A stretch of 64,000 bases of DNA from the NCBI RefSeq assembly GCF_023277745.1, contig NZ_CP086322.1:1054001-1118000 (forward strand), given 5' to 3'. Shown in pieces: positions 5,645 to 44,960 of this stretch (position 1 is the first letter of the stretch; every line of letters begins with the position of its first letter). This DNA comes from Streptomyces halobius. GTDB lineage: Bacteria > Actinomycetota > Actinomycetes > Streptomycetales > Streptomycetaceae. The notes under the pieces are model-generated. The model saw nothing but the letters and a program-made list of their open reading frames with translations. It had not been told where the DNA came from and did no database searches. The translations under genes and the position numbers were made by a program.

Positions 5645-6232
5645 TCACTGCTGAACTCCCTGCGAGGGGTTGGCGATCTGGGCTTCGAGGTCAGCGACGC
5701 GCCGGTCCTGGAAGCGGAGGTTGGAGCGGGCGGCTTTGAGTCGCTCGTCGAGGGTGCGGTTGTCAGCGGTCAGCTGGCGGACCTTTTGTTTGAGTGTGGT
5801 GTTTTCGGTGGTGATCCGCTGGATGGCTTCCTCGGTCCACTCGGCTTGCAAGTACCTTATCTGGCCGAGTAGTTCACCGATGCGGGTGCGCTGGGTGAGG
5901 ATCTCGACCTGGGCGGCCTTGAGCGCGTCCTCGGCGTTCAGCGCGCGCTCGCGCCAGGTCGCCTCGCGCTCGTCGTCCTGTGCGGTGAGCATGCGGGTCC
6001 GGCGGTCACCTGCCTTGGCCATCGCTGCGGCGACGGCGGCCCGGGCCTCGGAGTTGTCATAGAGGAAGGTGCGTGAGACGTTCGCCCGCCGGGCGACAGC
6101 AGCGACGCTGACCTGAGCCTTCTCCCGTTGGAGCCGGGCGATGGACTCGTGGACCCGCAGGAGGGCCGCCTCGGTCTTGCTGCGGCGGGCTGCCAGGGCA
6201 GCGGCAGTGCGGGATTCGGGGACGTTGTTCAT
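5645..6232 (-). CDS. tnpC: TnpC-like (DUF6262) auxiliary transposition protein
   Basis: 195 residues. It starts with a basic, helix-turn-helix-like block (VSVAAVARRANVSRTFLYDN, about residues 40-60) followed by a long coiled coil (roughly 85-190: EREATWRERALNAEDALK, then LTADNRTLDERLKAARSNL). This is the TnpC/DUF6262 type associated with Tn554-family recombinases, which affects the efficiency and orientation of transposition. The ATG (6232) overlaps the tnpB stop as ATGA. A second, partial copy of the same family is present at about 17.4-17.6 kb. Upstream in-frame codons are rejected because they lie inside tnpB. Confidence 0.8.
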   Translation of the reverse strand: MNNVPESRTAAALAARRSKTEAALLRVHESIARLQREKAQVSVAAVARRANVSRTFLYDNSEARAAVAAAMAKAGDRRTRMLTAQDDEREATWRERALNAEDALKAAQVEILTQRTRIGELLGQIRYLQAEWTEEAIQRITTENTTLKQKVRQLTADNRTLDERLKAARSNLRFQDRRVADLEAQIANPSQGVQQ

Positions 6233-8871
6233 GCGACGTCCTGTTCGGGGTCGGTGTCCTCGGCTGTGCATGTATCGCTGTACTCGTTTTCCTCCTCGGT
6301 GCCCGCGGCAGCGAGGTCGGCTGCACGGAAGGCGGTGGACCACACGCGGCGGAAGTAATCCTGGGGTTTGCGCAGGTCCAGGGCGAGGGCGTCGTCAAGA
6401 AGGCCAAGGCCGGCCAGGGCCTTCTCCAGGCCGTCGATGGCGCGGGCGGTCGGCTCGAAGTAGCGGTGGAGGTAGTCGGCGGTGGCGTCGTCCGGGGCGC
6501 CCTCGGCCAGCAGCCGCCACTGCTCACGCTTGCGACGCCAGTAGAGCAGGTCGGCGCCGGACAGAACGAACTTGTCGCAGGAGTGGCAGTTGAGGCTCCA
6601 GGGGCAGTCGCCGCCGTCGACGACGGGCTGGAAGGTGCAGAAGCCGCCCTCGGCAGGAGTGCTGCGGCGACCAAGGTCGATCGCGAGGGCCATGGCATGC
6701 TCTCGGGTGAGCGGAGTGAGGTCGTCGGTGAGGATTTCGCCGGGGTTGGCGGCTCCGGGGCCGGCCACCCAGACGTGCTGGAGCACGCTCTCCAGGTCGG
6801 ACTGGGCGAGATGGACGTAATGCTCGGCCATGCGCTCGGAGACCTGACCGAGGTAGCGGCGGATGTGGGTCAGGCTCGCTCCGGCTCGCAGCAGGCTGGT
6901 GGCCAGCGAGTGCCGGGCTTGGTGGGGCACCCACCGGCCTATGTCGAGATCGTTGATCCATGCTTTGAAGCCCCGGTGGAACCACTGGTAGGACAGGGGC
7001 CGACGGCTGTCGCTGTTGCGCTGGTTGCTGGGAAACAGCGGCAGTTGGGCGCGTTCCTCCAGGGTCGGCGGGCGGTTGTGGCGAGTGGCGAACAAGGCCA
7101 GGGTCTTGCGCTGTCGGGCTTCCAGCCGCTGGTGGAGCTGTTCAGGTATGCGGATCGCGGCGTCGTAGTTGCCGACCTTCGTTTGGTCGTGCCAGAGCAT
7201 GGGGAGCCCGCCGTAGCGGCCCAGGCAGTCCAGACGAAGTTTGATCACCTCGCTGCAGCGCCGTCCGGTGACGATGATGGTCTCCCAGGCGTCTCGGAGT
7301 CCGCGGTCGGCCGGGTCGTGGCAGGCGGCGAGCGTCTGCAGGTTCGTCTCCGCGGCGAGGGCTCGGGCGACTTCGTCGGAGAAGGGGGTCCGTGTCCGGG
7401 TGACGATCCTGCCCGAAGAGGGCATGGCGGTGACGAAACCCCGGTCGAGGCCGAGCCGTTCGGCTTCGCCGGATTCCAGAGCTTCCAGGAGGATTCGCCG
7501 GGTGCGGGTGAAGACCATCTGGCGGGTGTAGGCGGTCACGACGGACGGTTTGCCGTGCAGGCCTTTCACTCCCAGGGACGGCAGCCCGTCCAGTTCGCGG
7601 AGTCGTTGGTCGGCGGCGAAGTCGTGGACGTGGTGCGGCCGAAGCAGCCTTGGGTCGTGACCGCCGCCGGGGGCGTGGATCTCCAGGAAGGCGCTGAGCT
7701 CGGTGCAGGCTCGCCGGGTGCCGTCGAAGGTGTGGCCTGAGCGCGGACAGCTCGGGGACCGCAGTATCGCGGCGAAATGATCCCAGGCCAGGTCGCGGAG
7801 CCATCGCTGAGATATCGGGGTCAGGTCGATGCGTGTCGACCGGTTGTTCAGCCTGCGGCCGAAGTGCTCGGTGTTCAGGTAGCCCTGCTCGCGGGTCTGC
7901 TCCGGCGTCACATAAAGCGGGGTGAGCAGGTCGATGAGGATCCGGGCGAGGTAGGAGGCATCCCGGCCGGCTGTGGCCAGCCGACTACCTTCCTCGTCCG
8001 GGTCCAGGCTGTCGGCAGTCAGGTCGGTGAGTGAGTGAAATCCGTGCTCGCGGCAGTAGTCCGCCAGGCTCTGGATCTGTGTGAGCTCCCAGCGCCTTCC
8101 CGATCCACGGGCGTGGACGAACAGTCCCCACTGAATCTCGGCTCTCAGGAGCGGGTGCAGACCGCGGAGGTTGATCTGACCAGGTCGGGATACTGGTGCT
8201 GTCCTTGAGCACCACCGCCGGAAGTCCGATTCGTTGTCGTAGACGACCGGCACCGGCGAACCGACCCGCTCGTAGCGATTGCCCCACTGCGCTGGCAGCA
8301 CGGCCCCGCCCGGCCGCCCCTCTCTGCGATAGCGCCGGTGGTGCCGATAGCAGAGCCCCAGGGGCGATTCCGCCAGGTCAGGACAGACCACGGCTTTGCA
8401 GCGTCCATATCCGGGCCGAGACAGCTGCTTGGCCAGCCAGGTGTCGAAGTCGGCGGCGTCTCCGTGCCGGTCGCGGTAGTGATACCAGCTGAACTGGTGG
8501 TGGTGACACAACTCCAAGGTCAACTGGCGTGCCGGCCGCTCGGGGCAGAGCCGGCACGGTCGCTCACGCAGTTCCTCGCCGTGCCCGACCAGGTCAGCGG
8601 TGCGTAGGAAGTCCGCCCGGGACTGCTCAGCGCGCAGCCGCCGCCATGCAACCTCGTGGGCGCCGCAGAGATCTCCCCGGCCCGCCCTCGGCCGCTCGCA
8701 ATCGGTGACCAGGCAGACCCATCGGTAGACAGGGTGGTCCGGTGTGATCTCGACGATCTCCGAGCGGAACACTGGATCGAAGGACGGTGAGTTGACCAGC
8801 GCGGTCATGATCTCGAATCGATCCCGTCCCTCCCGGGCGTCCCGCACCGGGGTCAGAGCTGTCTCGGTCAC
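6229..8871 (-). CDS. tnpB: TnpB-like tyrosine recombinase of the Tn554-like element
   Basis: 880 residues, longer than Tn554 TnpB (about 630) through an N-terminal extension with several Cys/His clusters (CERPRAGRGDLCGAH, CRLCPERPARQLTLELCHHH). The tyrosine recombinase domain shows the first catalytic Arg in TGRRCSEVIKLRLDCL (about residue 533), the H-x-x-R box HQARHSLATSLLRAG (about 646) and the nucleophile Tyr in MAEHYVHLA. A Cys-rich segment follows (CTFQPVVDGGDCPWSLNCHSC). It acts with TnpA to cut and rejoin the element's ends at hexamer targets. The GTG start overlaps the tnpA stop (GTGA). Confidence 0.85.
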   Translation of the reverse strand: MTETALTPVRDAREGRDRFEIMTALVNSPSFDPVFRSEIVEITPDHPVYRWVCLVTDCERPRAGRGDLCGAHEVAWRRLRAEQSRADFLRTADLVGHGEELRERPCRLCPERPARQLTLELCHHHQFSWYHYRDRHGDAADFDTWLAKQLSRPGYGRCKAVVCPDLAESPLGLCYRHHRRYRREGRPGGAVLPAQWGNRYERVGSPVPVVYDNESDFRRWCSRTAPVSRPGQINLRGLHPLLRAEIQWGLFVHARGSGRRWELTQIQSLADYCREHGFHSLTDLTADSLDPDEEGSRLATAGRDASYLARILIDLLTPLYVTPEQTREQGYLNTEHFGRRLNNRSTRIDLTPISQRWLRDLAWDHFAAILRSPSCPRSGHTFDGTRRACTELSAFLEIHAPGGGHDPRLLRPHHVHDFAADQRLRELDGLPSLGVKGLHGKPSVVTAYTRQMVFTRTRRILLEALESGEAERLGLDRGFVTAMPSSGRIVTRTRTPFSDEVARALAAETNLQTLAACHDPADRGLRDAWETIIVTGRRCSEVIKLRLDCLGRYGGLPMLWHDQTKVGNYDAAIRIPEQLHQRLEARQRKTLALFATRHNRPPTLEERAQLPLFPSNQRNSDSRRPLSYQWFHRGFKAWINDLDIGRWVPHQARHSLATSLLRAGASLTHIRRYLGQVSERMAEHYVHLAQSDLESVLQHVWVAGPGAANPGEILTDDLTPLTREHAMALAIDLGRRSTPAEGGFCTFQPVVDGGDCPWSLNCHSCDKFVLSGADLLYWRRKREQWRLLAEGAPDDATADYLHRYFEPTARAIDGLEKALAGLGLLDDALALDLRKPQDYFRRVWSTAFRAADLAAAGTEEENEYSDTCTAEDTDPEQDVA

Positions 8872-10073
8872 CGCGTCTCACCCCAGACCGCGCGTAGAGC
8901 GGAGTCGAAGGCAGGGTCGTGGATGTCGACGTGTCCGTAGACCTCGTCGACGGTGGCGGCCGAGGCCCAGCCGCCGGCATCCCGGGCGATCAGCAGGTTG
9001 CCGTCGGCGGCGTCGAGGACCGCGGACGTGAACGAATGCCGGAAGGCGTGGGGTTTCACCAGCCCGAGCTCGGCGCGTTTCCCGGCCCGGCCGAGCATCC
9101 GCCGGGCCCCGACCGGCGCCCACGGCTGTCCGGCGCAGGCGCCGTGCAACTGGACCAGGAGCATGCCGTGTCCGGCTTCGCGCGGGTACTCGCTGGTGAG
9201 GTACTCGAAGTAGGAGTGCACCATCGCCGGACTGACCCGCTTGATCAGTCCGCCGGTAACCGTGCCGTGCTCGACCCGCCAGGAGTGCTTGGTCTTGGCC
9301 TCGGCCCGGTTCGGATTACCGGGCCGGTGACAGACGTGCAGATGAGGGGCGCGGCACTCGCCGCAGGCCGCGTTCTCGCGCAGGTGCAGGTCGACCAGGT
9401 GCAGCCCGCAGAGTTCGCCGATCCGCAGGCCACCGTCGGCCAGCCAGGTCACCACCATCCGGTCCCGGGCCGAGTTCACCGTCTCCAGCAGCTTCTCCCT
9501 CGCCCCGTCGGGCAGCATCTTCGGGTGCCGGCGGTGCGGGCCCTTCGGCGCGAGCGGGTTGGCCGGCATCGCGGACTTCACGTGCCCGAGGAACGACCGG
9601 CGCCGGTCCACCCGCGACGGCAGCCGTGTGCCGTCGAGCTTCTCACCGAGGCCCACGTTGACGCCGAGGGAGGCTTGGTGCAGGTAGAAGCCCTTCAGGC
9701 AGGATGCCGCGGTCGACAGCGCGGACCGGCCGTAGGGGCGCTTGCCCACCCGCCACGGTTCCCCGAGCGGCATATGGACCTCGGCGCCGACGATGCCCAT
9801 GTACCGTTCCAGGTCGCGCAGTTGGACTGTGTCGAAGGCCAGGCACTCGCGCTCCAGCCACCGGAGATGATCGACCAGGTAGTACGCGTAGGTCTTCTGT
9901 GTGCCCGAGCCGTCATGGACGCGCAGGAACCGGTCCGCCTCGGCGTGGAGTGTGCCCTCCGGCCAGACGATGGTCCATGACCTCCATCCGCTCTTCCGCT
10001 CGATCCGCTGGACCCTCAAGTCCTCGACCACAAGGTGCCGTACCACTCGTCCTCCGTACCGACTCCAGAACAT
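8868..10073 (-). CDS. tnpA: TnpA-like tyrosine recombinase of the Tn554-like element
   Basis: 401 residues of tyrosine site-specific recombinase. The N-terminal half is a SAM-like DNA-binding domain. The catalytic residues are seen at the Arg of GGLRIGEL, the HAFRH box (His342, Arg345, His346), Trp369 and Tyr379 in VYGHVD. A small Cys/His cluster (CGECRAPHLHVCH) lies between the two halves of the catalytic domain. It is the first gene of tnpABC and starts about 95 bp inside the right end repeat, next to two GGTCGGTAAA copies (about 10091 and 10158) that are likely recombinase-binding sites. Confidence 0.88.
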   Translation of the reverse strand: MFWSRYGGRVVRHLVVEDLRVQRIERKSGWRSWTIVWPEGTLHAEADRFLRVHDGSGTQKTYAYYLVDHLRWLERECLAFDTVQLRDLERYMGIVGAEVHMPLGEPWRVGKRPYGRSALSTAASCLKGFYLHQASLGVNVGLGEKLDGTRLPSRVDRRRSFLGHVKSAMPANPLAPKGPHRRHPKMLPDGAREKLLETVNSARDRMVVTWLADGGLRIGELCGLHLVDLHLRENAACGECRAPHLHVCHRPGNPNRAEAKTKHSWRVEHGTVTGGLIKRVSPAMVHSYFEYLTSEYPREAGHGMLLVQLHGACAGQPWAPVGARRMLGRAGKRAELGLVKPHAFRHSFTSAVLDAADGNLLIARDAGGWASAATVDEVYGHVDIHDPAFDSALRAVWGETR

Positions 10074-10158
10074 GACGAACGTCCTGAACCCGGTCGGTAA
10101 ACAAGCCCATGACGTTCACGCCACAGGCTCGAACGGACATCACGAACAGCACAAACTA

Positions 10159-10169
10159 CGGTCGGTAAA
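10159..10169 (-). repeat. Right terminal repeat of the Tn554-like element
   Basis: On the minus strand TTTACCGACCG, matching the left end at 4889-4899 in inverted orientation. A further GGTCGGTAAA copy at about 10091-10101 lies inside the element. Confidence 0.7.
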
Positions 10170-10340
10170 GCAGGCGATGACCCACTCATCGAGAAGATTC
10201 TGGAGTTCGGGCAGCGACCACAGCCTTCCGTCTTCCAGCCGCCGCCCGCGGCGGTCCGTGGTCGAGCCGGTGTAACCCGCGACGAACTGGGCGAACAATG
10301 TGGCCACTGAGCCCAGGGTCTTCTCGATCGTGCCCTTGTC
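10170..10340 (-). pseudogene. tnsB: TnsB/TniA transposase, central fragment with the catalytic Glu
   Basis: Reads GTIEKTLGSVATLFAQFVAG followed by YTGSTTDRRGRRLEDGRLWS and LPELQNLLDEWVIAC. The Glu of IEKTLGS is the third residue of the DDE triad. It is separated from the first two Asp residues by the serine-integrase element (joined at TTGTC, 10336-10340) and from the C-terminal domain by the Tn554-like element (joined at 10169/10170). Fused to the N-terminal fragment the sequence is TPTDKGTIEKTLGS without any frame break, so both insertions are precise. Confidence 0.88.
10336..10340 (+). other. Attachment core TTGTC, left copy
   Basis: Joint between the central tnsB fragment (lower coordinates) and the serine-integrase element. 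The identical pentamer is at the other boundary. Confidence 0.75.
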
Positions 10341-10654
10341 ATGAGTCGTCGACTGCACCCGATCAGCACGGTCAGCCCGGAGTTGTCCGGGTCACGCACC
10401 CGTTCCACCCGTGGCATGGGCGGGAGTTCGCCTTCGTCGACCGGTGCCTGGCGTGGGACGTGGACCGGGTCAGCTTCCTGGACGAGAACGGCGAGGTGGC
10501 CTCGCTGCCCGCAGCGTGGACGGACATCGATCCGGTGGACCCGTTCGTCGTGGTGGCCGACGGTCCCTGTCCGTTCCGGGTGCAGGACCTGTTGGCCGCT
10601 GCTGATCTGCTTGACGCGCTCAGGTCGCGGACTGTCGGGAAGAAGATGCCGTGA
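10341..10654 (+). CDS. DUF5372-like protein, body separated from its start codon by integration
   Basis: The recognisable part is VTHPFHPWHGREFAFVDRCL followed by WDVDRVSFLDENGEVASLPAAW and DPFVVVADGPCPFRVQDLLA, the pattern of the DUF5372 family found beside serine recombinases. There is no ATG, GTG or TTG in frame between the attachment core and this block. An in-frame ATG at 10298 lies in tnsB antisense, outside the element. In the excised circle, however, the ATG at 13723 with its AAGGAGG site reads MKHEVC across the core into HESSTAPDQHG and on to the stop at 10654, giving a complete protein of about 110 residues. Function unknown; its position suggests control of integrase or excision. 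In the integrated state it is probably not made, or made from an internal GTG. Confidence 0.7.
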
Positions 10655-10832
10655 GTGTCGCCTGATCCACACCGCTCTCGATGCCCGTCGCGATCGAGAG
10701 CGGTGTGAGGGACACGATGGGGGTGCGTGATCACCTGCAGATTCACCTGCATGTACCCCGTTTGGAGTCTTGGCCGTGATCGCCCCTCGGCGCGAACCTG
10801 GTGACACCGGCCGGGCCTGGGAGGGGACAGCA

Positions 10833-11336
10833 GTGGCAGCGACCGTAACAGACCCCAAGGCGACCGCTTTGGCAGCGGCACGCGTGCTCAACCCACATCC
10901 CGAGCGGGTGGTCGACGAGGTGTTCCTCGCCTCGCCGTTCTGCGACGCACGGGACTTGGTGCAGGTCAAGTACGAGATGGTGCGGCGAGTGCGGGTGGAC
11001 AAGGTGCCGGTCGCCCAGGCGGCCCGTGCCTTCGGCTACTGCCGCCAGGCGTTCTATGAGATCGCCGCCGCCCTGGACGCCGGCGGGCCAGGCGCCCTGG
11101 TTCCAGGCAAGCCCGGTCCGAAGGGGCCGACCAAGCTGACCGAGCCGGTCATGGACCGCATTGATGCCTGGCGTGCAGGCGAACCCGGCCTCACTTCACG
11201 GAAGTTGGCCGCTCGGTTGCATGACGAGCTTGGCCTTTCCGTCCACCCGCGCTCCATTGAACGCGCAGTGGCCCGCCGTCGTGAACCGGAGACGGCCGAG
11301 GAGGAGCCCATAGCCCGAGTCGCCAACGGGCGGTGA
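10833..11336 (+). CDS. Helix-turn-helix protein of the serine-integrase element
   Basis: 167 residues from a GTG at 10833 (VAATVTDPKATAL), preceded by GGAGGGGA. Two DNA-binding blocks are visible: KVPVAQAARAFGYCRQAFYEI (about residues 60-80), a classical helix-turn-helix, and LTSRKLAARLHDELGLSVHP (about 125-145), like the second domain of winged-helix proteins found in IS630-type transposases and related regulators. It sits between the DUF5372-like body and the integrase, all on one strand, so it may regulate recombination or act as a recombination directionality factor; this is inference. The frame ends just before a further coding-looking frame at 11337. Confidence 0.7.
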   Translation: MAATVTDPKATALAAARVLNPHPERVVDEVFLASPFCDARDLVQVKYEMVRRVRVDKVPVAQAARAFGYCRQAFYEIAAALDAGGPGALVPGKPGPKGPTKLTEPVMDRIDAWRAGEPGLTSRKLAARLHDELGLSVHPRSIERAVARRREPETAEEEPIARVANGR

Positions 11337-11337
11337 G

Positions 11338-11586
11338 TCTGCGGCCGGTGTCGCGGAGTACGAGCGGTTGCACTGGGCGCCGTTGCGGGGCGGACGTCGG
11401 CCTGGGCTGGGAGTGCTGGTGGCCCGGGGCATGCTCGCCTTCTTGCGCGTGGCCGACGCCGTCTGCACCACACGAAAGAACCCTCCTGAGGCTCCGCCGC
11501 CCCTTCCGGTGGCGGGCGGCGTGCTGGATCCGGAGGTCGTGCGGGTGTGGTCACGGATAGTCCTGGCCCACGCCCACAGCCCATGA
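11338..11586 (+). CDS. Small frame between the HTH gene and the integrase
   Basis: Reads ESAAGVAEYERLHWAPLRGG, then GLGVLVARGMLAFLRVADAV and ends GGVLDPEVVRVWSRIVLAHA-HSP. The composition is protein-like, but the only in-frame initiator seen is a TTG at 11368. Because it begins exactly where the HTH gene stops, in the -1/+2 frame, it is either a separate coupled small protein or the C-terminal part of the HTH protein after a frameshift. The first alternative is slightly favoured by the close spacing (43 bp) to the integrase RBS. Confidence 0.45.
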   Translation, partial: SAAGVAEYERLHWAPLRGGRRPGLGVLVARGMLAFLRVADAVCTTRKNPPEAPPPLPVAGGVLDPEVVRVWSRIVLAHAHSP

Positions 11587-11629
11587 CCAGCGGTGACGTC
11601 CGCGCTGGAGATCACAGAAGGAGAAGCTG

Positions 11630-13726
11630 GTGGATCCGCTGTTCGGGCCGGCGGCCAAGGTGACCGCCGCTCACCTCGCCCGGGACGCCTACCTGTATAT
11701 CCGGCAGAGCTCGCTCAAGCAGGTCCTGAACAACACCGAGTCGACGGTGCGGCAGTACGGGCTCAAGGAGCGGGCCATCGCACTGGGCTGGCCCGCGGAC
11801 CGGATCCACGTCATCGACACGGACCAGGGACAGTCCGGTGCCTCGGCGGCGGACCGGGAAGGCTTCCAGCGGCTGGTCACCGAGGTCGGCATGGGACACG
11901 CCGGCATCGTCTTGGGCCTGGAGGTGAGCCGGCTCGCGCGGAACAACACCGACTGGCACCGGCTGCTGGAGATCTGCGCCATGGCCGGGACCCTCATCCT
12001 CGACGAGGACGGTCTCTACGACCCCTGCGACTTCAACGACCGCCTGCTGCTGGGCCTGAAGGGCACCATGTCGGAGGCAGAGCTGCACCTGCTCAAGGCC
12101 CGCCTGCGCGGAGGCCAGCTGTCCAAGGCCCGCCGCGGGGAACTGATCAGCCCCCTGCCGATCGGCCTGGTCTACGACCCGTCCGGGAAGGTCGTCCTCG
12201 ACCCCGATACCGCCATCCAGCAGGCCATCCGGGCGGTCTTCGAGCTGTTCGACGCCACCGGCTCGGCCACCGCCGTGGTCAAGTCGTTCAATGCCGAGGG
12301 CCTGCGGCTGCCCCGCCGCCTGGCCCACGGCCCGGACAAGGGCAAGGTCGTGTGGGCCCCGGCCCAGCACTCGCGGATCCTGCAGATCCTGCACAACCCC
12401 CGCTATGCCGGCGCCTTCTTCTACGGCCGCTACCAGCACCGGCCCACCCCCGGCACCGGCAAGAGCGGCCCACGGCTGCAACCACGCGAGCAGTGGGTCG
12501 CCTTCTTCCCCGACCACCACCCCGGATACATCACGCTGGAGAAGTACGACGCCAACCAGGCCAAACTCGCCGCTAACGCCACCGCCCACGGCAAGGACCG
12601 CCGCCACGGGCCACCCCGCGAAGGCCCGGCCCTGCTGCAGGGCATCGTCCTGTGCGGCATCTGCGGCCGGCGCATGACCGTCCGCTACCACCAACGCAAA
12701 GACCGTCTGGAGCCGGAGTACGTCTGCCAGGCCAAAGGCATCCAGTACGGCAGCCCGATCTGCCAGCGCGTCCACGGCGCTGTCGTCGACGACGCCGTCG
12801 GAGACCTGCTGGTCACCGCACTGACCCCGCACGCGATCCAGGCAGCCCTCGCCGTCGCCGACGAACTGGCCGCCCGCGCAGAGGAAGCCGACCGGCTGCG
12901 AGCCGCCGCCGTCGAACGCGCCCAGTACCAAGCCGACTTGGCCCGGCGCCGCTACCTCGCCGTCGACCCTGACAACCGCCTGGTCGCCACCAGCCTGGAA
13001 GCCGACTGGAACCAGGCCCTGCGTGACGTCGCCGAAGCCACCGACACCTACGAGAAGGCGAAAAACACCGCCACCGGCGTCCTCGATGACGCCCAGCGGG
13101 CGCGGATCACCGCCCTGGCCCGCGACTTCCCGGCCCTGTGGGCCAACCCGGACACCCCCGACCGCGAGCGCAAGCGCCTGGTACGGCTGCTGGTCACCGA
13201 CGTCACCCTCATCCGCGCCGAGCAGATCACCGCCCACGTCCGCCTCACCGGCGGACAGGAGCACACCCTCGTGCGTCCGATCCCGCTGGCGTCCTGGCAG
13301 ATCCGGCAGACCCCACCCGAGGTCGTCGCCGCCATCGATCAACTCCTCGACGACCACACCGACGGCCAGATCGCCGCGATCCTCACCGAACGCGGCCACG
13401 TCAGCGGCCTCGGTCAGGCCCTCAGCCCCGGAATCGTCAAGCACATCCGGCGTGCCTACCGACTGCGCAGCCATCCCCAGCGGCTCGCTGACCAGGGCAT
13501 ACTCAGTCTCCGCGAGATCGCCCGCCAGCTCGACATCGGCCTGAGTACGGTCAAGCACTGGCGCGACCGCGGCCTGCTGACCGGCCGCCTCGCCAACGAC
13601 AAGGGCGAGTACCTCTACCACCCACCGCCGCCCGACCTCGCCCGGCCCCGCATCGGACGGCCACCCCGTCCACGACCTGCACCCGACGAAACACCCATCG
13701 AATCAGCTCAAGGAGGCGCAGTATGA
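11630..13726 (+). CDS. int: Large serine recombinase (integrase)
   Basis: 698 residues from a GTG at 11630, after AGAAGGAGAAG. The N-terminal catalytic domain starts YLYIRQSSLKQ with the nucleophile Ser27 and continues to GLEVSRLARNNTDWHRLLE (about 95-120). Then follow the recombinase domain (residues about 170-300: IQQAIRAVFELFDATGSATA), a zinc ribbon (LCGICGRRM ... YVCQAKG ... PICQRVHG, about 341-385), a coiled-coil region and a C-terminal MerR-like helix-turn-helix (SLREIARQLDIGLSTVKHWR). It would integrate and excise the surrounding element at the TTGTC core. The stop overlaps the ATG at 13723 (ATGA), the start codon of the DUF5372-like gene in the circular form. Confidence 0.93.
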   Translation: MDPLFGPAAKVTAAHLARDAYLYIRQSSLKQVLNNTESTVRQYGLKERAIALGWPADRIHVIDTDQGQSGASAADREGFQRLVTEVGMGHAGIVLGLEVSRLARNNTDWHRLLEICAMAGTLILDEDGLYDPCDFNDRLLLGLKGTMSEAELHLLKARLRGGQLSKARRGELISPLPIGLVYDPSGKVVLDPDTAIQQAIRAVFELFDATGSATAVVKSFNAEGLRLPRRLAHGPDKGKVVWAPAQHSRILQILHNPRYAGAFFYGRYQHRPTPGTGKSGPRLQPREQWVAFFPDHHPGYITLEKYDANQAKLAANATAHGKDRRHGPPREGPALLQGIVLCGICGRRMTVRYHQRKDRLEPEYVCQAKGIQYGSPICQRVHGAVVDDAVGDLLVTALTPHAIQAALAVADELAARAEEADRLRAAAVERAQYQADLARRRYLAVDPDNRLVATSLEADWNQALRDVAEATDTYEKAKNTATGVLDDAQRARITALARDFPALWANPDTPDRERKRLVRLLVTDVTLIRAEQITAHVRLTGGQEHTLVRPIPLASWQIRQTPPEVVAAIDQLLDDHTDGQIAAILTERGHVSGLGQALSPGIVKHIRRAYRLRSHPQRLADQGILSLREIARQLDIGLSTVKHWRDRGLLTGRLANDKGEYLYHPPPPDLARPRIGRPPRPRPAPDETPIESAQGGAV

Positions 13727-13741
13727 AGCACGAGGTTTGTC
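13710..13741 (+). promoter_or_regulatory. RBS, ATG and first six codons of the split DUF5372-like gene, with right attachment core
   Basis: AAGGAGG at 13710-13716 precedes ATG at 13723 by the usual distance. The codons ATG AAG CAC GAG GTT TGT lead straight into the core TTGTC (13737-13741). In the integrated state translation would run on into tnsB antisense and stop after about 17 codons. In the excised circle the same frame enters the DUF5372-like body at 10341. Confidence 0.75.
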
Positions 13742-14761
13742 GGTGGGTGTTGCCTTGTGGGCAGGTTGCAGGTTGATGCCCAGATAGCGGCAGGACGCCC
13801 GGAAGTTGTGCGAGACGAACACTTTGCCGTGGTCGCAGACGATCGTCTCCGGCACGATCACCGGCCGGGCCGCCGCGTGCTCCAGGCGCTCGTCAATGCT
13901 CAGCAGCCGCCGGTGCGGCAGCACCGACCGGGACATCCGCAGGGCCTCTGACCAGCCTGGACGCATCGCCTCCGGGGTGACGCTGCGGGCCAGCAGGGCG
14001 GAGGCGTCCGCAGCTTTCGTGGTGGGCCGTAGCACCGCCGCGGTAATCGACCTCGTGGCAATGTCGACCATGGCTGTCAGCTCGACCTTTTCGGCGATCC
14101 CGTCGTCCAGCCGCACCAGCACGTCCAGCGGGGTGGAGTCGATCTGCATCAACTCGCCCGGTGCACTGGCCGGCACTTCACCGAACGGACCTGAGGGTCT
14201 TGCGTTGATCGAACGACGCGTGCGGGCCGACCCGGTGGCATGGGTGCCCGCGGCCAGCTTGTCGAACAACCGATAGAGCGTGGCCCGCGACGGCAGCTCA
14301 ACAGCGGTGCTCTCGCAGTCGGCGAGAATCTCCTTGGTCCGCCAGATGATGAACCCGATGGTCCTGGACGACGCGTCGACAGTCTCGGCGATCGCCTGCT
14401 GCATCGCCTCCACCACCGCCGGGTCGACGTGCCCGAAGGCCGGCATCCGCTTTGCCGACCGGCCATCCACCAGTCCAACCAGCCCGTCTCGCTGGTAACG
14501 CTGGCGTCTCTGCTTGATGCCACTAGCCGACACCCGGTGCCCGGCCGCCGTCAGTTCCGCTGCCTTGGCCCGTTCGCGCTGAGCCAGCGAGTGCTGTTTC
14601 GGATCGAACTCCGGCCGCGGCTTCGCCCCTTCCGCGACGTCCGGTGGCAGGCCGTCCAGGACCTCAAGGATGTGCCTCTCCCACCAGCGAGCCTGTTCAG
14701 CGGCCGTCTCAGGAAACTCCGCGATCCGAGCCGTCAGCGGCACCCGCCTTTTGCCGGTCAC
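13737..14761 (-). pseudogene. tnsB: TnsB/TniA transposase, N-terminal fragment
   Basis: About 340 residues holding the N-terminal helix-turn-helix region (LAQRERAKAAELTAAGHRVS then GIKQRRQRYQRDGLVGLVDG) and the first part of the RNase H-like DDE domain. The first catalytic Asp is in LMQIDSTPLDVLV and the second in IVCDHGKVF. The gene breaks at TPTDK where the serine-integrase element begins; the catalytic Glu lies 3.4 kb away. The GTG start overlaps the tnsA stop (GTGA). Intact, it would be about 630-640 residues with the other two fragments, normal for this family. Confidence 0.88.
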
Positions 14762-15510
14762 TGGGCACCCCTATCAGCCAGGCTCACGACCGTGCGTGGT
14801 CCCATCAGCTCGGTCGACATCGCCTCGGCGGTCAGTTCCTGGAGCCAGAGCAGGTGAAACAGCACGGCCAGCGTTGCCAGCCGATCGCCTACCGCATCTG
14901 CCCCGGCCATCAACGGCCTTGGGGCCGCAAAGAGCTCCCGGAGCCGGTCCGCGACCGGGCCGTTGAAGCAGCGGGGGTGCCGGTAGCGCGACAGCCACCG
15001 GACATTCGCCAGCAGCACAGCATCTGGCACCCCGACCCGCTCGAACCTCCACCCGGCCTGGGAACAGGCCAGGCCCGTCACCTCGAACGCTTCGGCGTCC
15101 TTCGGCTCGATCCGCTCGTCCGCACGAACATCGACGACCGCAGCCGAGCCGTCCGCGCGGCGCACGAAATAGTCCGGGGCGTGTCGACGCTCCCGTTCGC
15201 CGTCGTGCCAGTGCAGCCAGAACGGCTGCGAGGCGATCCCCATCACCTCGGGATCGAAGTCCATCAGCAGGAGCCGGTCACGCTCCAACCACGATTCGAA
15301 GCCGACGTGTCGCCCGGTCGTGCCCGCCCAGTACCAGCCCGCGAAGTGACGCTCGCCCCGCGACCAGCGAAACTGCCGCACCGGAGCGACGTCCTCGAAC
15401 CGGGCTGTCACACAGTCCAGCAACGGACGCCTGTGACGCTCACGTACAGCGTCCACGTACGACAGCTCGACGTACGGCTCCGCAAGATCCACCCCAGCCG
15501 GTACAGCCAC
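14758..15510 (-). CDS. tnsA: TnsA-like heteromeric transposase endonuclease
   Basis: 250 residues. The region 70-130 has the restriction-enzyme-like nuclease pattern of TnsA: FESWLERDRLL with Glu72, IASQPFWLHW, then HAPDYFVRRADGS with Asp113 and VVDVRAD at 125-131. Where E. coli TnsA has a Gln/Glu-x-Lys this protein has Asp127-Val-Arg129, so the catalytic Lys is replaced by Arg. TnsA makes the second-strand cut that allows cut-and-paste transposition together with TnsB. It is the first gene of the tns operon, starts at a GTG about 30 bp from the right end repeat and is coupled to tnsB through GTGA. Confidence 0.82.
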   Translation of the reverse strand: MAVPAGVDLAEPYVELSYVDAVRERHRRPLLDCVTARFEDVAPVRQFRWSRGERHFAGWYWAGTTGRHVGFESWLERDRLLLMDFDPEVMGIASQPFWLHWHDGERERRHAPDYFVRRADGSAAVVDVRADERIEPKDAEAFEVTGLACSQAGWRFERVGVPDAVLLANVRWLSRYRHPRCFNGPVADRLRELFAAPRPLMAGADAVGDRLATLAVLFHLLWLQELTAEAMSTELMGPRTVVSLADRGAQ

Positions 15511-44633: not shown

Positions 44634-44960
44634 AGAACTCTCCAGTGCATGCCAGCCACCGGCCTGACGAGGCCGGATTCCGGCACACCGGACATCCCTG
44701 GAAAGGGCGGATACAGACTGCCGTACTACGACAGCAGCGTCCGGGCTACCAACCGGACCGCGATTTCGTGCGCACGATCAGGCTACCGGAGAATGACCCC
44801 AGCACCGCTTCCTGTCCCACCCCCTTCAAGGATCGGAGTCTCTTACTGACCCACGCTCCTAGCTAGTCGACCTGCCAGAACCTCGTTTCGGCCGCAACAT
44901 AGTTGCTCGCCGAGTGACCGTCAGTCGAAGCGGAAGGCGGAGGATCTGCCCAATTTGTGA

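Follow-up and report, generated by a model that had tools for sequence, protein, structure and literature searches.

A DUF5372 gene apparently divided by integration in a small serine-recombinase element of transposase genes

Why does one end of a mobile element carry a gene body that has no start codon, and the other end a ribosome-binding site (RBS) and start codon that run out of the element? The question is raised by a locus of Streptomyces halobius (assembly GCF_023277745.1, contig NZ_CP086322.1), a 9.24-Mb genome in a single contig. We analysed positions 1,054,001 to 1,118,000 of this contig; this stretch of 64,000 nucleotides is called the window, and positions are counted within it. 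The sequence TTGTC is present at 10336-10340 and 13737-13741, where it bounds a serine-recombinase element. A sequence-only reading had claimed that integration splits a DUF5372 gene, with the start at one end of the element and the body at the other, and this arrangement is indeed found, with TTGTC at both ends. At the right end, AAGGAGG (13710-13716) precedes an ATG at 13723 that overlaps the recombinase stop codon TGA (13724-13726). At the left end, the body has no start inside the element ahead of the domain: the first in-frame ATG, GTG or TTG is GTG 10460, already within it. The frame continues across the core, and the joined reading is 110 codons long and free of stops. The body matches PF17342 at 79.7 bits, against a curated cut-off of 25. 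We suggest, with a probability of about three in four, that the element belongs to the small serine-recombinase transposons of the DUF5372 (Y4bD/Y4pK) kind, that its attachment site attP spans the 5' end of the gene that comes last, and that DUF5372 would be a circle-phase gene silenced by integration.

The features on which this reading is based are the following.
10336..10340, plus strand: core TTGTC of the left attachment site (attL), located by the empty paralogous site
10340..10654, plus strand: headless DUF5372 body (PF17342), in frame from CAT 10340 to the stop TGA 10652-10654
10352..10359, plus strand: left attP half-site ACTGCACC, 14 nt from the core, doubling as Thr-Ala-Pro codons of DUF5372
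13710..13716, plus strand: RBS AAGGAGG of DUF5372, read from the sequence
13715..13722, plus strand: right attP half-site GGCGCAGT, from the half-site comparison
13723..13739, plus strand: DUF5372 start, ATG AAG CAC GAG GTT TG.., running into the core
13737..13741, plus strand: core TTGTC of the right attachment site (attR), located by the empty paralogous site

The ends of the element were established from an empty paralogous site that the genome also contains (G000:C1:350925-351525, minus strand), which is 95-97% identical and lacks the element. It reads ..GATCGTGCCC-TTGTC-GGTGGGTG.., with target sequence on both sides of a single TTGTC copy. TTGTC is thus the shared core, which gives an element unit of 3401 bp (10338-13738). 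In the relatives L044, L070 and L071, one element lies in three different flanks, and the sequences diverge at TT. This dinucleotide (10336-10337 at the left core) is probably the crossover site. A short identical core with a putative 2-bp crossover is what large serine recombinases use, and the recombinase carries the domain set of that group (Resolvase N-terminal, Recombinase and zinc-ribbon domains, all over cut-off). Comparison of relatives gave attP as an imperfect inverted repeat, GGNGCAGT-N14-TT-N14-ACTGCNCC.

The same layout, with the start on the right, the body on the left and the two in frame, was observed in relatives from Actinomycetota, alpha- and betaproteobacteria, Chloroflexota and Acidobacteriota, which supports the interpretation given by the sequence-only reading. 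No attP junction was out of frame among the elements with recognisable ends. For this comparison 33 elements were aligned by their ends; two with degraded left ends, L057 and L060 (half-site scores of 2 and 3), were excluded and L047 was re-anchored, which left 31 elements, 25 of them non-redundant. The right-end pattern in this alignment, as in the target survey described below, required a start codon. The cores of these first 25 elements were picked by half-site symmetry and not by frame. Their joined frame contains no stop in 578 codons, and the other two frames contain 44, of which about 24 are the TGA of the RTGA motif, and 20. With 11 more elements and the start codon skipped, the counts are 0 in 843 codons against 28 and 34; as the cores of 12 later-added elements were chosen among open-frame candidates, only the first 25 are unbiased for this count. 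Taking one element per 80%-identity cluster (n = 18) leaves 0 stops in 401 codons against 12 and 17. Beyond the site, the linker to the domain has 23, 24 or 26 residues, and thus differs only by whole codons.

The start signals are one-sided. A search for the right half-site as GG.GCA[GC]T, in which no start codon was required, found ATG (18) or GTG (10) directly after it in all 28 matching element ends; this search sees only ends with the half-site pattern, and one of its 29 matches (L009, minus strand) lies outside an element. Three of the 28 ends (L067, L073, L086) have no TT at the expected place. At the mirrored position of the left arm RTG occurs in 0 of 25 elements. A Shine-Dalgarno-like sequence precedes the right-end start in 34 of 36 elements if AAGG is counted and in 22 of 36 otherwise. 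The domain itself is under purifying selection: its ratio of non-synonymous to synonymous differences (pN/pS) is 0.18, while the other frames give 1.97 and 1.56.

Several observations weigh against the proposed split gene. To begin with, a circular form is expected from the way serine recombinases work, and the searches made for it had a negative outcome. The intact DUF5372 gene across attP that the sequence-only reading had suggested looking for in plasmid forms was not found there: a rhizobial joined junction of 164 nt matched 217 plasmid places and a window-type joined query of 164 nt matched four, none of them covering 80% of the query. The joined protein of 110 residues had 97 matches among 5.8 billion proteins, none with the joined start. 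The attP pattern had one match in viral contigs (L094), which was rejected as unrelated, and a recombinase search of viral contigs gave one locus, L119. Contig L041 (3398 bp) is one whole element unit with both contig ends exactly at the att core, and contig L097 ends at the right core. We did not accept these two as circles; they are probably collapsed repeats.

The geometry of the site also counts against us. The spacing of attP is fixed at 14+2+14 nt, which equals ten codons, so an in-frame position at the second half-site is built in. The ends may then be kept only as recombinase half-sites, with the in-frame junction a by-product of the spacing and the ATG starting at most a short leader. 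That attP is an inverted repeat agrees with this explanation, as does the weak constraint on the att codons, compared within six groups that comprise 27 of the 36 elements. Right-arm codons have a pN/pS of 0.57 against 1.36 and 1.00 in the other frames, which is weak evidence, and the value of 0.51 in the left arm does not discriminate the frame from the other two (1.84 and 0.56). Codons 2-5 show 20 synonymous and 39 non-synonymous pairwise differences, the pairs not being independent. Weak constraint in the att leader is nevertheless expected if the site contributes the start region and not the folded part, as is the low mean predicted local distance difference test score (pLDDT) of 47 over the first ten residues of the modelled body. 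Moreover, the half-site GCA and T are common to both arms, whereas the Shine-Dalgarno-like GAGG and RTGA are confined to the right one; the linker past the site is stop-free as well and shifts by whole codons; and a conserved domain would otherwise often be left without a start. We consider conservation as half-sites only to be quite improbable. The stop-free joined frame, whole-codon linker, one-sided start signals and selected headless domain together point to more than geometry.

Finally, DUF5372 may be made while the element is integrated, from an internal GTG, a rare start codon or a fusion with the flank, the right-end ATG being incidental. The claim that no independent start exists inside the left end held in part. 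Among 36 non-redundant elements, 18, including that of the window, have none, but the other 18 have an in-frame ATG, GTG or TTG between the core and the domain; only codons wholly inside the left end were counted, and L015, one of the 18 without, has a TTG spanning the core. The internal start is mostly one valine codon, GTG, two residues before VTHP, with GGAG 6 nt ahead of it in L043-L045. A shortened protein is thus possibly translated in the integrated state of these elements. In the window an apparently accidental fusion frame begins at ATG 10298 in the flank (protein P0001). This is one of five database proteins, among the 97 matched, that have at least 23 residues before the domain, none of them like the joined start. 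Annotators chose such starts too: the annotated DUF5372 start is GTG in four of 13 records and ATA, ATC, ATT or CTG in seven, and in one record it is an ATG in target DNA. However, odd annotated starts are also expected for a headless gene. Half of the elements have no internal start at all, 48 of 55 integrated left ends in a manually compiled list have no start ahead of DUF5372 in the flank, a single one has a flank start with a Shine-Dalgarno-like sequence, and the frame is open all the way to the core. On balance, expression from the integrated left end is clearly unlikely. Public DUF5372 starts are varied (ATA, ATC, ATT, CTG, deep GTG) at loci L009-L015, L109-L111, L113, L115 and L118.

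Under the split-gene reading, the circle would have the helix-turn-helix gene, a short open reading frame (ORF), the recombinase gene and DUF5372 in continuous order. Excision would recombine attL with attR, rebuilding attP and joining both halves of DUF5372, and the protein would be translated from the free circle, coupled behind the recombinase at the ATGA overlap. Integration into a transposase gene would cut DUF5372 after its fifth codon and leave the body without a start. The state of the gene would thus report the state of integration. DUF5372 would be a circle-phase factor that most likely aids integration by the recombinase or maintenance of the circle, and that shuts itself off on integration.

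A small protein coupled to a large serine recombinase could also be a recombination directionality factor that drives excision. In phage systems serine integrases require a directionality partner for the reverse reaction, according to the accessible part of PMC5737554. However, a directionality factor would be absent in exactly the integrated state that needs it, the body being headless, and TndX, another serine recombinase, reportedly needs no such factor (PMC5704250, accessible part). If DUF5372 is made only by the circle, it is unlikely to drive excision. We regard the directionality role as unlikely and favour a factor of integration or circle keeping. The predicted fold resembles ribosomal proteins, KOW and Tudor domains no more closely than small barrels commonly do. 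A sequence search of the PDB with the DUF5372 profile gave no match, PHROGs gave none for DUF5372, the helix-turn-helix protein or the short ORF, and no match of DUF5372 was observed in phages. To see whether DUF5372 derives from a transposase, we also compared its profile with ten IS21-like targets, using their C-terminal parts; nothing was found, and this origin was rejected.

The 3.4-kb element contains four plus-strand reading frames, DUF5372 being the first, and interrupts a minus-strand IS481/TnsB-like transposase gene adjoined by a TnsA-like gene.
10668..10707, plus strand: perfect 15-bp inverted repeat just past the DUF5372 stop, a possible terminator
10833..11336, plus strand: helix-turn-helix protein (PF13518, 4.7e-08; NF033577, 1.8e-11, 44.1 bits, below the cut-off of 224)
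11368..11586, plus strand: short ORF without a family match; small ORFs are annotated at the same place in several relatives
11630..13726, plus strand: large serine recombinase of 698 aa with Resolvase, Recombinase and Zn_ribbon_recom domains
10143..10337, minus strand: C-terminal remnant of the transposase that is interrupted, with K-G-T-I-E (third catalytic motif) as its first residues
13739..14761, minus strand: N-terminal part of the same IS481/TnsB-like transposase, with ..A-T-P-T-D as its last residues at the core
14758..15510, minus strand: TnsA-like endonuclease of the host transposon (NF033179, 309.8 bits, cut-off 110)

The N-terminal transposase part matches rve at 1.3e-06 (29.1 bits, slightly below the cut-off of 32.6) and NF033577 at 1.9e-13, under the cut-off of that profile. 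The helix-turn-helix protein of the element is similar to the N-terminal helix-turn-helix region of IS481-type transposases. No promoter was found in a scan of 10600-10900. The fold after the DUF5372 stop is strong in the window only, most relatives having no comparable fold, and a terminator at this place was dropped as a family trait.

Translation of the flanks antisense to the element, left and right separately, revealed a common target. Of 58 manually compiled left flanks, 54 are unique (L025, L073 and L051 were left out), and 53 of these begin with [NK]xxxE, which we take to be the third catalytic motif of DDE transposases. The exception, L012, reflects an ambiguity in the core register, and reads KAKLE in the target survey. 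In that survey 47 of 49 left ends have the motif, and the two without it, L025 and L073, have poor half-sites. [NK] is followed by Ala, Gly or Pro in 50 of the 54; Asp directly precedes [NK] in only 30 of 52 right flanks. The Asn or Lys codon supplies the AA to which the core TT is complementary. The Glu does not vary among 41 aligned C-terminal parts, at a mean column identity of 8%. Pfam scans covered 35 of 43 right ends and 41 of 49 left ends, and 29 of the 35 right flanks matched rve at E 0.001. The commonest NCBIfam matches of the flanks, with cut-offs not applied, are IS21, IS481 and IS3 transposases. In three loci the two flanks meet at neighbouring positions of a single profile: IS3 313/314 (L049), IS21 226/227 (L071) and ISL3 336/337 (L015). 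As judged from these alignments, the family lands antisense at [NK]-[AGP]-x-x-E codons, often after Asp, of DDE transposases (IS3, IS21, ISL3, IS481/TnsB-like), and the insertion cuts the predicted transposase upstream of the catalytic Glu. No description of such targeting was found in the literature text searched, subscription papers and supplements being outside its coverage, and by this measure targeting of the DDE motif by DUF5372 elements appears to be new here.

Such a bias might also arise by survivorship, if the recombinase were loosely specific and only insertions into dispensable transposase genes persisted. In L070 the insertion lies in a gene for glycoside hydrolase 95 and not in a transposase, and a TC..TT site is present there; retention of this pattern is also expected if the recombinase recognises a DNA site. 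However, 53 of the 54 unique sites share codon register, orientation and motif across several transposase families, and copies of one element lie at the same codons of distinct transposases (L044/L071 and L049/L072). Dispensable DNA is far larger than one motif. Survivorship thus seems highly improbable as the source of the preference. The targets of L044 and L071 share IS21 as the best-matching family, and those of L049 and L072 share IS3; these pairs were dropped as candidates for near-identical elements in different transposase families. L072 has no transposase in its right flank.

Taken one step further, the DUF5372 elements may be a widespread hyperparasitic family whose target site attB is tuned to the codons of the catalytic Glu motif common to several DDE transposase families, which would disarm transposons and use them as a dispersed safe harbour, with attP acting as a self-erasing DUF5372 switch. 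We hold the chances of this wider picture to be even. In the sister transposase copy without the element (G000:C1:350925-351525; L002, L004), there is an early stop downstream of the motif, so this copy is probably not an intact helper. The window also contains two adjacent tyrosine recombinases of 880 and 401 aa (6229-10073), a pair that presumably resembles the Tn554-like set. A 99.6% identical copy of this region (L003) stops where the window match stops, at about 10174, beside the transposase remnant; the host transposon has thus seemingly been hit twice.

Relatives of the element occur in Actinomycetota, several proteobacterial groups, Chloroflexota, Acidobacteriota and Planctomycetota, and recombinase pieces were observed in two archaeal contigs. 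The element is rare: among 392 genomes sampled from the genus, 13 have DUF5372 (12 over cut-off), and a sample of 396 genomes from the phylum yielded the recombinase, at E 1e-60, in 10. In Rhizobium sp. T1470, a second and different recombinase gene (L111 2292-4800) lies upstream of a DUF5372 element and ends about 0.1 kb short of it. Elsewhere in the window, at 44672-44780 on the minus strand, there is a candidate azaaromatic (yjdF) riboswitch (48.6 bits, gathering score 45).

If the proposed mechanism is right, the integrity of the DUF5372 gene should reveal which physical state a mobile element is in, through an arrangement conserved across phyla, and a headless gene would account for the odd start codons annotated for DUF5372. 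The DNA target of the recombinase family coincides with highly constrained transposase codons, which is relevant both to competition between elements and to finding recombinases with predictable targets.

The likeness to phage systems with attP inside a gene, which the sequence-only reading had pointed out, stands for the position of attP, given the predicted junction, but it is the N-terminus and not the C-terminus that is separated here. The integration-dependent immunity of mycobacteriophage BPs, as presented in the accessible part of PMC4557955, also has attP within a gene, the product of which is altered by integration; there, however, the repressor is trimmed at its C-terminus, and the prophage form is active. 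In the DUF5372 element the start codon is separated, and the intact form would exist in the circle. The SSV1-type integrase gene is reportedly split by integration. It resembles the present case in that the element's own gene is cut (PMC6563490, accessible part), but there the integrase itself is affected, whereas here DUF5372 is cut and the recombinase is intact at 11630-13726. An element that targets an origin of transfer similarly uses a functional sequence conserved among other mobile elements, but the target here is coding DNA for a transposase catalytic motif. The multi-targeting large serine recombinases (TndX/DUF4368 clade, Cp36) offer a further parallel, one recombinase with many genomic sites; the words rve and DDE are absent from the accessible main text of the source, supplements aside (PMC10083194). 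Unlike that clade, the window recombinase has no DUF4368 among its Pfam hits (E 0.01), and its targets share one protein motif. The closest counterparts are genes of Sinorhizobium fredii NGR234 which we take to be those named Y4bA-Y4bD/Y4pH-Y4pK; one database protein, P0030, bears the name Y4bD/Y4pK, and literature text searches found no paper on these genes. They belong to the same family, with the gene order DUF5372, helix-turn-helix, small ORF and recombinase (L012), and have the same att layout.

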